The notes beneath the pieces are model-generated. The model was not told the origin of the DNA and did no database searches. It saw nothing but the letters and a program-made list of their open reading frames with translations. DNA of 55,369 nucleotides, from assembly GCA_902767785.1 (NCBI GenBank), contig CACXIR010000029.1, positions 15,523 through 70,891 on the forward strand, in the 5' to 3' direction. Below, one piece after another: positions 20,383-43,048 of this stretch; position 1 is the first letter of the stretch, and each line of letters starts with the position of its first letter. A program made the translations under genes and the position numbers. The stretch is from Fibrobacter succinogenes (GTDB lineage: Bacteria; Fibrobacterota; Fibrobacteria; Fibrobacterales; Fibrobacteraceae).

Positions 20383-20456
20383 TCGGAATAGCGAGATTCG
20401 AACTCACGACCTCTTGCTCCCGAAGCAAGCGCTCTACCAGGCTGAGCTATATTCCG
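20383..20456 (-). tRNA. tRNA-Pro (anticodon CGG)
   Basis: On the minus strand the cloverleaf folds fully. The acceptor stem is CGGAATA/TATTCCG, the D-arm GCTC/GAGC, and the anticodon stem CTTGC/GCAAG with loop TTCGGGA (anticodon CGG). The T-arm is GTGAG-TTCGAAT-CTCGC and the discriminator base is A. The 3' CCA is not encoded. It lies 54 nt downstream of the smr gene and may be read from the same operon. Confidence 0.95.
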
Positions 20457-38559: not shown

Positions 38560-39732
38560 ATGATTAGCATTACCAAGCTGTTGATGGATGTGCCGAATTT
38601 TGGCGACACTCTTCGCTACACTCCCGAGGCTCACGAAGCCCGGAACGGGGTGAGCGAAGGTCGTGGACCTGTGGTGGTCTGGAACTGCACCAAGACCTGC
38701 AACTTGAACTGCGTGCACTGCTACGCCCGCTCCGAGGCCATCAAGTACCAGAACGAACTGACCCACGAAGAAGGCCTTTCGCTCATCGACCAGCTTGCGG
38801 ACTTCAAGGTTCCCGTCATCCTCTTTAGTGGTGGCGAGCCCCTGTTGCGTCCGGATTTTTTTGAACTGGCGAACTACGCCGCCAGCAAGGGCATTCGCCC
38901 CACCATCAGCACCAACGGCACCCGCATCGACGAAGACGTTGCAAAACGCCTCAAGGACATGGGCGTAGGCTACGTGGGTATCAGTTTGGACGGCTGCGAA
39001 ACCACCCACGACAAGTTCCGTGGTAAGCCTGGTGCCTTCCAGATGGCACTTCGGGGCATTCGCAACTGCGTGGCCACTGGGCAAAAGGTAGGGCTTCGCT
39101 TTACTATCACCCGCGACAACGTGCAGGATCTGAATTCCATCTTTGACTTGCTAGAACGGGAAAACATCGACCGGGTCTGCTTCTACCACCTGGTCTACAG
39201 CGGTCGCGGTTCTGCCATGGTAGAGCGCGACTTGAACCACGAAGAAAGCCGTCGTGCCATGGACCTGATTATCGAACGCACTCTAGATTTCAGGGCCCGC
39301 GGGATCAACAAGGAAATCCTCACGGTGGACAACCACGCCGACGCCGTTTACCTGTACCTCAAGATGAAGGAGCGGGACCCTATTCTCGGGGAGCGCATCC
39401 TGAAGCTCATCCAGAGCAACGGCGGAAACCGCAGCGGCATGGCCTTCGGTAACATCGATAGTGTAGGGAATGTCCACCCCGACCAGTTCACCCAGTACAT
39501 CACCTTAGGCAATGTTCGTGAACGGCCCTTTGGTGAAATTTGGACCGACGTGAGCAATCCCATTATGGCGGGCCTCAAGGACCGCAAGCCCCTTTTGAAG
39601 GGCCGCTGCCCCGAGTGTGCCTATCTGAACCTGTGCAACGGTAACTTCCGCACCCGCGCCGAAGCCGTGACCGGAGACTTCTGGGCTCAGGACCCGGCCT
39701 GCTACCTGACGGACGAAGAGATTAGGGGCTAA
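38560..39732 (+). CDS. ahbC: AhbC-like radical SAM enzyme (12,18-didecarboxysiroheme deacetylase)
   Basis: A 390-aa SPASM/twitch-type radical SAM protein. The cluster motif CNLNCVHCYAR lies near residue 47, followed by LFSGGEPLLRPDF, ISTNGT, SLDGCETTHDKFRG and FYHLVYSGRGS. The C-terminal cysteines CPECAYLNLCNG bind an auxiliary cluster, and the ending RAEAVTGDFWAQDPACYLTDEEI is highly typical of AhbC. AhbC forms Fe-coproporphyrin III from didecarboxysiroheme in the siroheme-dependent heme route; the related NirJ acts in heme d1 synthesis. A quinol-linked cytochrome b would need heme. No other ahb gene is in the window. Confidence 0.83.
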   Translation: MISITKLLMDVPNFGDTLRYTPEAHEARNGVSEGRGPVVVWNCTKTCNLNCVHCYARSEAIKYQNELTHEEGLSLIDQLADFKVPVILFSGGEPLLRPDFFELANYAASKGIRPTISTNGTRIDEDVAKRLKDMGVGYVGISLDGCETTHDKFRGKPGAFQMALRGIRNCVATGQKVGLRFTITRDNVQDLNSIFDLLERENIDRVCFYHLVYSGRGSAMVERDLNHEESRRAMDLIIERTLDFRARGINKEILTVDNHADAVYLYLKMKERDPILGERILKLIQSNGGNRSGMAFGNIDSVGNVHPDQFTQYITLGNVRERPFGEIWTDVSNPIMAGLKDRKPLLKGRCPECAYLNLCNGNFRTRAEAVTGDFWAQDPACYLTDEEIRG

Positions 39733-39847: not shown

Positions 39848-40864
39848 ATGAATTGCGATGATTTGAAAATTTCCGACAAAATCAGGGATTATTTGGGTTC
39901 TCACGGCTACGGCGCGGACTTTTCCGTGGAGTCCATAGCAGGTGCCGGTTCTGGCCGTCGTTACTACAGGATTTCTTCCGGGGAACGTACTTCGGTTTTG
40001 CAGGTGTCTTCTGAACTGAACGAAGACTTCAAGAAGTTTGTTGAAAATTCCCAGGTGTTCAGGGCTGCGGGCCTGCCGGTTCCCAAGCTCTTTTGCGTGG
40101 ACGAAGATGCTGTGCAGATTCTGCAAGAGGACCTAGGTTCTCGCAGGCTTCTGGACGACGTTTCTCCGGACAGGCCCCAGTCGGGCAGCGTACGCATCCT
40201 CTATCCCGAGGTCATCGAGGCGCTTATCCGCTGGCAGAATGCCTCTCAGTCGCTTTTCAGCACCCATACCGACATTTGGCTCCGCCGCTTTGATTTTGCC
40301 GCGCTGAAGTGGGAGACGGATTACTTTACCGAAAACTACCTGAAGGGCCATTGCGGCATTACGGAAATTCCCGACTACGTGCGGAATTTCTACTCCTTGC
40401 TGGCAGTGTCGGTGGACGCCCAGACCAAGGTGCTGATGCACAGGGATTTCCAGAGCCAGAACATCATGGTCAAGGACAGTTCCGAGGTGGCCTTCGTGGA
40501 TTACCAGGGGGCAAGGCGCGGTTCCATGTTCTACGACATCGCTTCGCTTTTGTGGGACCCCTACGTGAGCCTTCCGCTGGATTTGGTCAAGGACTTTTTC
40601 GAGTACTGGCGTTTCCAGTACAAGGGCGCCAAGATATACACCAAGGAAGATGCTTGGGAAAGTTTTGTGCATGCAAGCCTCCAGCGCCTTATGCAGGCCA
40701 TGGGTGCTTTCTGCTTCCTTTCCAAGGTCAAGGGAATCCAAAAGTTCGAGCAGTACATTGAGCCGGGCAAAAAGCAGCTGCGGGTCTTGTTCGCTGAATT
40801 CAGAAAGATTGCCAAGGCCACGGACCCTCAGGTGTTCTCCTTTATGGAGAGGGCGCTCCTTTGA
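39848..40864 (+). CDS. Aminoglycoside-phosphotransferase-fold sugar kinase (AmgK-like)
   Basis: A 338-aa APH-fold kinase. Visible motifs are the Brenner-type catalytic loop LMHRDFQSQNIMV (HxDxxxxN) and the metal-binding VDYQGARRGSMFYDIASLL. The latter is characteristic of the subgroup containing AmgK, the MurNAc/GlcNAc anomeric kinase of peptidoglycan recycling. Antibiotic resistance is unlikely because that subgroup differs. The stop overlaps the TTG start of the following PTS EIIA gene, so the two are translationally coupled. Confidence 0.75.
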   Translation: MNCDDLKISDKIRDYLGSHGYGADFSVESIAGAGSGRRYYRISSGERTSVLQVSSELNEDFKKFVENSQVFRAAGLPVPKLFCVDEDAVQILQEDLGSRRLLDDVSPDRPQSGSVRILYPEVIEALIRWQNASQSLFSTHTDIWLRRFDFAALKWETDYFTENYLKGHCGITEIPDYVRNFYSLLAVSVDAQTKVLMHRDFQSQNIMVKDSSEVAFVDYQGARRGSMFYDIASLLWDPYVSLPLDLVKDFFEYWRFQYKGAKIYTKEDAWESFVHASLQRLMQAMGAFCFLSKVKGIQKFEQYIEPGKKQLRVLFAEFRKIAKATDPQVFSFMERALL

Positions 40865-41289
40865 GTGGACTGGTTCCCGCCTATACCCAGGTTTATAAGG
40901 AACCCGTTGCGTTCCAAAGGGCCTTGGGACTTGCCTACGACGCCTTGGTGCATGGGGCTGTGCCGTTTGACGCCCTTTCCGTGTGGAAGGCACTAGAAAA
41001 AAGGATAGGGGAGGGGATCTACATGGGTTCCGGCTTGTTGCTTCCCCATGCCCGCGTTCAGGGGCTTGCTGAACCCCTTATGGCGTTTGTAGTGGCTCCC
41101 GAAATCAAGGAAATCGTGGTTCCCCGCGGCGAGACCGCTCAGTTTTTGTGCCTGCTCCTTTCTCCCGCAGAGTCTGCGACGGCCCATACGGTGGCCATTG
41201 CCGGAGTGGCCAAGCTTTTGCTGGATCCGGAGTGGAAAAAACGCGCTTTGACCGCTCCCGACGCTCTTTTTTTGCAAAGCTTGTTTTAG
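40861..41289 (+). CDS. PTS EIIA-type (PtsN/fructose family) domain protein
   Basis: A 142-aa single-domain protein of the EIIA-2 (fructose/nitrogen) family. The phosphorylatable His lies in LLLPHARVQGL near residue 62, followed by FVVAPEI and LCLLLSPAESATAHT. With no EIIB/EIIC partner nearby, a regulatory PtsN-like role is more likely than sugar transport. The start is TTG 40861, overlapping the kinase stop (TTGA). Its coupling to an AmgK-like kinase suggests, but does not show, a link to cell-wall sugar recycling. Confidence 0.8.
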   Translation: MSGLVPAYTQVYKEPVAFQRALGLAYDALVHGAVPFDALSVWKALEKRIGEGIYMGSGLLLPHARVQGLAEPLMAFVVAPEIKEIVVPRGETAQFLCLLLSPAESATAHTVAIAGVAKLLLDPEWKKRALTAPDALFLQSLF

Positions 41290-41568
41290 TTGAAAGACTC
41301 TTTTTTTTGTCAAGACATCCCCAAAAAAATTTCTGTTGATAACCTGTGAAAACCATAGGGACGAATCCTTGATTTGCAAGGGGGTAAAAAGGGTTTTATT
41401 AGGCAAAAAACGGAGATTGACGGGCAAAAACAAAAATTGCCCTTTTTAGGCTGAAATTTGAGGTTTTTTAAAAAATTTCACAGAAAAATCTCTTTTCTGT
41501 ATGTTTTATTTAATTTTGGTGAACGATTTTGTTTGACCCCTTTTTCGTGTTTGGTTGATTGTGGATAA
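41290..41568 (+). other. AT-rich region with DnaA-box-like sites, candidate replication origin
   Basis: A 265-bp gene-free stretch with long A and T runs (for example 41471-41480 and 41500-41516). TGTTGATAA at 41334-41342 differs by one base from TGTGGATAA. TGTGAAAAC follows 2 nt later. A perfect DnaA box (TGTGGATAA, reverse of TTATCCACA) lies at 41560-41568, overlapping the start of the DnaA-family gene. Being next to dnaA is a common oriC position, but skew and other marker genes cannot be judged from this window. Confidence 0.4.
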
Positions 41569-43048
41569 TATCGCCTATTTGTTAGATGAAAAATGCTCTC
41601 CTTGGGACAGGATTTTGGAGCTTGTCCGCAGAGAATGCAACGATTTTGGTGCCGCCATATTTGACACTGTTGGATTTGAAGGCTTTTTTGATGGCTGTGT
41701 GTGCCTGACCGTACCCGACGCTTTCAGGGAAACTTGGCTGAATAGCCATTATGGTGCCTTGCTGCGCAAGACCTGCGCCTCTGTTTACGGAAGCGACTTC
41801 GTGGATTACAAGGTTCGCGTTTTGGAGCCTGCATCCAAGGTCGAAACGCCCAAGGTTTCCAATCCTATTCCACAAGAGGTGAAACTCTGGATTCGCGCGG
41901 CCAGGCTCAAAGCCCAGCAGGCAACGGCAAAAGCCTCTGCCGAAGAAAAACTTAATTTGTACGAAAAGTACACTTTTGAGAATTTTGTGGAAGGGGAGAG
42001 CAACTTTACTGCGTTGAAGGCCTGCCAGACTATTGTGGACCATCCGGGCGATGCGGCCATGAACCTTTTGCTGGTCTATGGCGCGCCGGGTCTTGGGAAA
42101 ACGCACTTGCTCCAGTCCATTGCCGCTAGTTTGCGCGAAACCCGTCCTGGGCTTCGCATCGTCTACCGCCAGGCGTATGATTTCCTCAGGGATTTCACCG
42201 CCATGGGCAAGGCCGCCGTGGACAAGGACTGGGCAAAGCTGAACGAGCTGAAGCAGCAGTTCTCGGACCGCTATGAGCACTGCGACGTGTTGCTGATGGA
42301 CGATATCCAGCTCTTGAAAAATGGAATCAAGTGCCAGGAGCGTTTGGCCATGCTCATCAAGTACATGGGCCAGATGGGGCATCAGGTGGTGCTGTCTTGC
42401 GATTGCCACCCTTCCAAGTTTAAGAAACTTTCTGCCGGCGAACATCCTGAGAAAAATTCCCTGTCCCACGAACTTACGGACAAGCTATTGAACCCCTTGG
42501 AAAACTGCGTTGCCGTGGGCATTGCCGAACCGGATTTCAATACCCGAATGGCCCTCATCCGCAAGATGTCAGAGAACATTCCCCTGGTAGAGCCGGACCG
42601 CGAAGAGATCTGCCGTTACCTGGCCATCCAGCCTAGGGCCAATGTGAGGATTATCGAAGGGCTTATGAATTGGCTCAGGGCCATGCACATTTTGAATAAC
42701 GTGGAGCTGAACCTTTCCAACGTGAAGAGGATGCTTTCTGCGCCAAAGCCCGGCGAGGCCGCGGTCCTTACGGTGGACAATATCGTGGAGTCCGTTGCTG
42801 CGGAGTTTTCCATGGATCAGCGGGTATTGTCTTCCAAGCGACAGGACATAGGGGCTTCCATTCCCAGGAAGATTGCCATGTACCTGTGCCGGGAACTCAC
42901 TACGGAATCCCTGAAAAAAATCGGCGACCTTTTCAACCGGGACTATTCCACGGTCATAGCCTCCATCAATTCCTTAGTTGACCAGATGGCCACCGATCAG
43001 GCGCTTGCTCGCAGGGTCCAGGACATCCGCTATTTGCTAGAAAGCTGA
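41555..43048 (+). CDS. dnaA: Divergent full-length DnaA-family replication initiator
   Basis: A 497-aa AAA+ protein with DnaA architecture. Domain I covers about residues 15-95 (WDRILELVRRECNDFG), followed by a linker, and the AAA+ domain has Walker A GAPGLGKTH (near 176-184), Walker B LLMDDIQLL and sensor II NVRIIEG. Domain IV is a helix-turn-helix with RKIAMYLCRELTTESLKKIGDLF. Three features are odd. Box VII reads DKLLNPLE instead of DRLxSRFxWG, so the Arg-finger positions are Lys and Pro. About 10 extra residues precede it. The domain IV signature has DYSTV where DHSTV/DHTTV is usual (Tyr near 464). The start is uncertain: TTG 41555 or GTG 41561, both without a ribosome-binding site. It may be the chromosomal initiator or a DnaA paralogue. 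Confidence 0.8.
   Translation: MIVDNIAYLLDEKCSPWDRILELVRRECNDFGAAIFDTVGFEGFFDGCVCLTVPDAFRETWLNSHYGALLRKTCASVYGSDFVDYKVRVLEPASKVETPKVSNPIPQEVKLWIRAARLKAQQATAKASAEEKLNLYEKYTFENFVEGESNFTALKACQTIVDHPGDAAMNLLLVYGAPGLGKTHLLQSIAASLRETRPGLRIVYRQAYDFLRDFTAMGKAAVDKDWAKLNELKQQFSDRYEHCDVLLMDDIQLLKNGIKCQERLAMLIKYMGQMGHQVVLSCDCHPSKFKKLSAGEHPEKNSLSHELTDKLLNPLENCVAVGIAEPDFNTRMALIRKMSENIPLVEPDREEICRYLAIQPRANVRIIEGLMNWLRAMHILNNVELNLSNVKRMLSAPKPGEAAVLTVDNIVESVAAEFSMDQRVLSSKRQDIGASIPRKIAMYLCRELTTESLKKIGDLFNRDYSTVIASINSLVDQMATDQALARRVQDIRYLLES

Follow-up and report, generated by a model that had tools for sequence, protein, structure and literature searches.

A full-length DnaA paralogue with an intact ATP site and no box VII arginines in Fibrobacter

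The DnaA initiator (TIGR00362; PF00308 + PF08299) has a four-domain layout with Walker A and B motifs, sensor 1, sensor 2 and a helix-turn-helix (HTH) in domain IV, and is usually viewed as a single protein that combines ATP binding with donation of the arginine finger. Chlamydia carries two DnaA genes per genome. Each E. coli DnaA protomer senses with its finger the ATP held by the adjacent one, and the resulting assemblies are polar and head-to-tail (PMC5742627, PMC6127211). The residues of the E. coli DnaA–DnaA interface include R227, K243 and L290 (PMC5742627), and H434 is one of the residues contacting the DnaA box (PMC7561715). A DnaA box is essential for the autoregulation of E. coli dnaA (PMC5835720). 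Two further groups of proteins are related to DnaA in part. Hda (TIGR03420) is homologous to DnaA domain III only (The DnaA Tale, PMC5835720), and GafA-type regulators employ a DnaA-like DNA-binding domain in a role other than that of initiator, with no AAA+ ATPase domain reported in the accessible part of the source (PMC9638019).

The DNA analysed here, referred to as the window, is a 55,369-nucleotide stretch of contig CACXIR010000029.1 of Fibrobacter succinogenes. It encodes a full-length protein of the DnaA family of 495 aa, named here DnaA2. The initial annotation had described this protein as a DnaA with all four domains, and the searches agree: TIGR00362 aligns over model positions 1–434 of 437, and Bac_DnaA (116.7 bits) and Bac_DnaA_C (69.8 bits) both score above the gathering threshold. 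The start codon is probably GTG 41561 and not TTG 41555, since close relatives match from residue 3 onwards and the aligned GTG is the start codon in many relatives. The closest solved structures, both by sequence and by fold, are those of DnaA (8btg, 2z4r, 2hcb). The AF2 model of DnaA2 is of modest confidence (pLDDT 69.5, pTM 0.45), with very low confidence for an insert preceding box VII, and it represents a monomer, hence the subunit interface is outside its reach. The features of the gene and its control region are listed in Table 1.

Table 1. Predicted features of dnaA2 and its upstream region in window coordinates.
Feature	Position	Strand	Basis or remark
TTGTCAAG element, nearly invariant upstream of Fibrobacter dnaA2	41307..41314	+	Alignment of 20 upstream regions
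DnaA-box-like TGTTGATAA at −227	41334..41342	+	~20 bases downstream of TTGTCAAG
TGTGAAAAC	41345-41353	+	2 bases after TGTTGATAA
TGTGGATAA, a perfect DnaA box spanning the start codon GTG	41560..41568	+	Sole TGTGGATAA in the 55 kb window
dnaA2 CDS	41561..43048	+	Probable GTG start at 41561, alternative TTG 41555; Pfam Bac_DnaA + Bac_DnaA_C
Domain I-like N-terminal region, F46 equivalent present	41597..41824 (approximate limits)	+	TIGR00362 alignment, residue map, AF2 secondary structure
Walker A GAPGLGKTH	42080..42106	+	K and T in 35/35 Fibrobacter DnaA2
Walker B LLMDDIQ	42290..42310	+	Both Asp in 35/35
Sensor 1 Asp (D269 equivalent)	42401..42403	+	35/35
15-residue insert, sensor 1 to box VII	42419..42463	+	Low model confidence, likely disordered
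Box VII position, DKLLNPL replacing DRLxSRF	42479..42499	+	Motif reading, residue map
Sensor 2 NVRIIEG, R334 equivalent kept	42641..42661	+	35/35
Domain IV helix-turn-helix (Bac_DnaA_C)	42773..42970	+	Pfam
DYSTV, Tyr at the H434 equivalent	42941..42955	+	Residue map

DnaA2 shares with the initiator the four-domain layout, Walker A and B, both sensors and the HTH of domain IV. Unlike the initiator, it scores below the equivalog cut-off of TIGR00362 (285.1 bits versus 343.9), lacks the box VII arginines, has altered residues at the R227, K243 and L290 positions and a Tyr in place of H434, is located away from the rnpA–dnaN origin locus, and coexists with a canonical DnaA. It differs from Hda in having domains I and IV and no finger, and its TIGR03420 score is 55.3 versus a cut-off of 194.8; in the model proposed below, DnaA2 would nevertheless resemble Hda as a DnaA paralogue acting on DnaA itself. 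Compared with the GafA type, as described in the accessible part of PMC9638019, DnaA2 is a complete DnaA. Fibrobacterota resemble the chlamydial group in having two DnaA genes in one genome, but DnaA2 reaches only 109.7 with NF009087 against a cut-off of 657. No prior description of two DnaAs in Fibrobacter was found in the open-access literature searched.

The functional residues were mapped over 35 Fibrobacter DnaA2 orthologues using E. coli DnaA numbering. The absence of the box VII arginines, noticed in the window protein (R281 to K, R285 to P), extends to the whole set, with no Arg at either position (0/35). The R281 position is occupied by K in 16 of the 35 sequences and by D, N, V and others in the rest, and the R285 position by P (24), H (9), N (1) or Y (1), never by K or R. 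The equivalents of R227, K243 and L290 are replaced in all 35, R227 by K in one of them. A read error is ruled out, as these residues are also missing from the orthologues of dozens of genomes that were assembled separately. The ATP site, described initially as apparently intact in Walker A, Walker B and sensor II, is conserved throughout: K178 and T179 of Walker A, D235 and D236 of Walker B and R334 of sensor 2 are each found in 35/35 sequences, as is sensor 1 D269. The extra residues before box VII are real, though they number 15 in the window protein and not about 10. A compensating Arg provided by the insert, which would have undermined the reading of a lost finger, was rejected, as no column of the insert has an invariant Arg or Lys; the best basic columns have K/R in 30/35 and 26/35 sequences, and the window protein has His in the second of these.

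The DNA-reading residues of domain IV are changed but kept within Fibrobacter DnaA2: H434Y is found in 34/35 sequences and Q408K in 35/35, and H439 is replaced in 35/35 by A or S. The DYSTV motif of the window protein is thus a genuine change; as a peculiarity of a single gene it did not hold, since Tyr for H434 marks most DnaA2 families and none of the mapped DnaA1 sequences. A supposed R399 to Q replacement was withdrawn: it reflects a one-residue shift of the loop register, and the spacing is identical in Fibrobacter DnaA1.

The genome from which the window originates (2.53 Mb, 177 contigs, 88% complete) also carries a canonical DnaA, DnaA1, on another contig (G000:C77:8484-9809), with SDRLVSRF and KDHSTV motifs. 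At least two DnaA matches were found in 90 of the 101 genomes searched, and two DnaAs are present in nearly all Fibrobacterota genomes among them. Four genomes (G093, G097, G099 and G085) gave a single DnaA match each, with DnaA2-type features; either DnaA1 is absent from these assemblies or only DnaA2 is encoded. DnaA1 and DnaA2 were separated in three trees, with branch supports of 100/98 in the last tree and 98/95 in another. In the DnaA2 clade of Fibrobacterota, as defined in the present analysis, the window protein is joined by the second DnaAs of other families, to the exclusion of DnaA1. With a canonical DnaA in the same genome and this separation in the trees, the window gene is practically certain to be a paralogue of dnaA1, which was one of the two options considered in the initial annotation. 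A duplication inside Fibrobacter only was rejected (p-AU 0.007). As read from the trees, which are unrooted and do not date the duplication relative to other phyla, this second DnaA of Fibrobacterota is ancient and has been passed on vertically. The finger-less sequences (12/12 tested, without R285) group together at 99/95 and belong to families f1 (Fibrobacter), f2 (same order) and f4 (same class); as reconstructed, the loss of the arginine finger falls on this one branch. The Fibrobacter DnaA2 stem is long (2.1–2.7 changes per column), and its exact position within DnaA2 should be treated with caution.

Among pairs with dS of 0.03–1.2, dN/dS has a median of 0.065 in DnaA2 and 0.088 in DnaA1, and on this estimate DnaA2 is under strong purifying selection. 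Mean pairwise identity across Fibrobacter is 60% for DnaA2 (35 sequences) versus 88% for DnaA1 (10 sequences). Of 60 further Fibrobacter genomes searched, 57 have a dnaA2 frame uninterrupted by stops; the remaining three are 62–74% complete.

A comparison of 65 DnaA2 and 38 DnaA1 sequences was used to follow the ATP-site residues (K178, D235, D236, D269 and R334) and the finger. Every one of the 65 DnaA2 sequences retains all five ATP-site residues, whereas R285 is retained in 26 and both arginines in eight. Both box VII arginines are present in 38/38 DnaA1 sequences, and ATP-site changes occur only in three sequences of family f7: D269P and R334G in L056, D236N, D269N and R334H in L169, and D236E in L082. 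The pattern of these three sequences is opposite to that of Fibrobacter DnaA2, and the L056 and L082 genes adjoin rnpA. The altered DnaA1 is confined to this one family, in which loci L159 and L169 were assigned by motif and not by tree. The erosion is given as counts with no statistical test, as related sequences are not independent. From these counts, we infer that the erosion is reciprocal and one-directional, which fits DnaA1 as a finger donor and DnaA2 as an ATP-bearing acceptor.

The control region of dnaA2 is rich in DnaA boxes. Between positions −270 and +12, 25 boxes were found at 18 Fibrobacter dnaA2 loci versus 0.09 expected from the remainder of the same loci, and 27 versus 0.09 expected at ten dnaA2 loci of families f9–f11, where they again lie around −210 and over the start codon. 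Both sets comprise related loci, and the weight rests on the excess, not on a P value. Upstream of Fibrobacter dnaA1, a box is present in 6/10 loci, in five of them 84–95 bases from the start. Given the conserved upstream boxes and the box-dependent autoregulation of E. coli dnaA, the expression of dnaA2 is likely to be controlled by DnaA.

In families f9–f12, dnaA1 is located beside rnpA–yidC–mnmE and dnaN, and the GC skew changes its sign there in most loci read; dnaA2 of these families is located away from the rnpA–dnaN locus. No GC-skew switch was found at dnaA2 across the window, and hence its control region was rejected as oriC. The Fibrobacter loci read had no clear switch at either dnaA1 or dnaA2, and the Fibrobacter oriC was not located by box clusters, by rnpA or by skew sampling of two genomes. 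Sampled GC skew (loci L085/L103–L122 of G047 contig 1 and L192–L210 of G005 contig 2) placed dnaA2 ~150 and ~230 kb from the inferred terminus in these two genomes.

The reading we prefer, with a probability of roughly 0.4, is that DnaA2 works with DnaA1 and not instead of it, as an acceptor that carries ATP and either caps mixed assemblies or completes them. DnaA2 would bind ATP and recognise a site of the DnaA-box type, and an adjacent DnaA1 would use its arginine finger to read the ATP of DnaA2 through a putative DnaA1–DnaA2 contact. The finger-less DnaA2 would be unable to activate the next protomer and would become the end unit of a head-to-tail DnaA assembly. As it can receive but not give, it would either act as a cap, halting growth in the finger-facing direction, or serve in a mixed complex as the fixed end, the one that holds ATP. 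The expression of dnaA2 may in turn respond to DnaA through the boxes of its control region. This model builds on what the sequences themselves show: DnaA2 is a paralogue under purifying selection that has lost its finger face but kept an intact ATP site, and its gene is preceded by conserved boxes. Two observations go against it: where DnaA2 has lost the finger, the DnaA1 of the same genome shows no corresponding change, and Lys at the R281 position (16/35), together with the basic residues of the insert, could provide another interface. The pattern suggests that the two copies share initiation or that DnaA2 restrains DnaA1. A broader proposal, which we consider unlikely, is that initiation in Fibrobacterota relies on a two-protein DnaA system, with labour divided between paralogous subunits, DnaA1 being the finger donor and DnaA2 the ATP-holding acceptor; eukaryotic ORC, with its mixed AAA+ subunits, would be a partial parallel to such a system.

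The main rival to a mixed assembly is a stand-alone regulator: DnaA2 may be a sequence-specific transcription factor, an ATP-responsive DNA binder that abandoned oligomerisation and origin unwinding. This is possible, if on balance somewhat unlikely. It agrees with the disappearance of all finger-face residues, the changed but clade-conserved DNA-reading residues, the lack of a skew switch at dnaA2 in the window, the position of dnaA2 far from the origin in two genomes and the reuse of a DnaA-like DNA-binding domain in the regulator GafA (PMC9638019). However, a transcription factor would not need strict conservation of domain I and a complete ATP site, and the changes in the f7 DnaA1 ATP site are left unexplained. 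The latter changes, being part of the same reciprocal erosion, are consistent with DnaA1 and DnaA2 as obligate initiation partners, with fingers supplied by one subunit and ATP held by the other, as is the retention of both copies across the phylum. Nevertheless, 35 of the 38 DnaA1 sequences have a complete ATP site and both arginines and should self-oligomerise, and obligate partnership appears distinctly unlikely.

It is quite improbable that DnaA2 is a conditional or second initiator (e.g., for stress or another replicon) that oligomerises via a new contact made by Lys308 or the insert. The retained domain I, ATP site and HTH would suit this role, as would Lys at the R281 position and the two mostly basic insert columns, but neither column is invariant, the R285 position never has K or R, the AID and K243 positions are also lost, and no origin signature is found at dnaA2. 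The initial annotation had also considered an initiator with a different mode of activation. This is unlikely, and DnaA2 as the Fibrobacter chromosomal initiator with DnaA1 as an accessory is very improbable: the ATP site and the two box VII arginines are all present in Fibrobacter DnaA1, which is also the better conserved copy, and the DnaA1 clade is linked to rnpA–yidC–mnmE/dnaN in other families (f9–f12) and, in most loci read, to the skew switch. The lack of a clear skew switch at either gene in the Fibrobacter loci read, where oriC was not located, is what speaks for this option. A decaying gene or an assembly error, to which the long DnaA2 stem branch might point, is already contradicted by the stop-free frames, the low dN/dS and the invariant ATP-site residues, and its probability is negligible.

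The two Fibrobacterota proteins, with the donor face lost in one and the ATP site changed in the other in one family, offer a natural separation-of-function pair, making it testable which DnaA face serves oligomer growth and control. Annotation as "dnaA" and the use of this gene as a marker in Fibrobacterota must distinguish both copies.

The neighbourhood of dnaA2 does not name its function, and among the loci read, the neighbours of Fibrobacter dnaA2 are not conserved beyond the genus. Directly upstream of dnaA2, the window encodes an AmgK-like sugar kinase and a PTS EIIA-type protein (39848–41289) with overlapping end and start; among the loci read, the order kinase–PTS EIIA-type–dnaA2 is common only to close relatives of the window. 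Further upstream, positions 38560–39732 encode a radical SAM protein whose score with the NirJ1 model TIGR04054 is 683.5, over the cut-off of 650. A tRNA-Pro (CGG) gene at 20383–20456 on the minus strand is the sole tRNA or Rfam match of the window.
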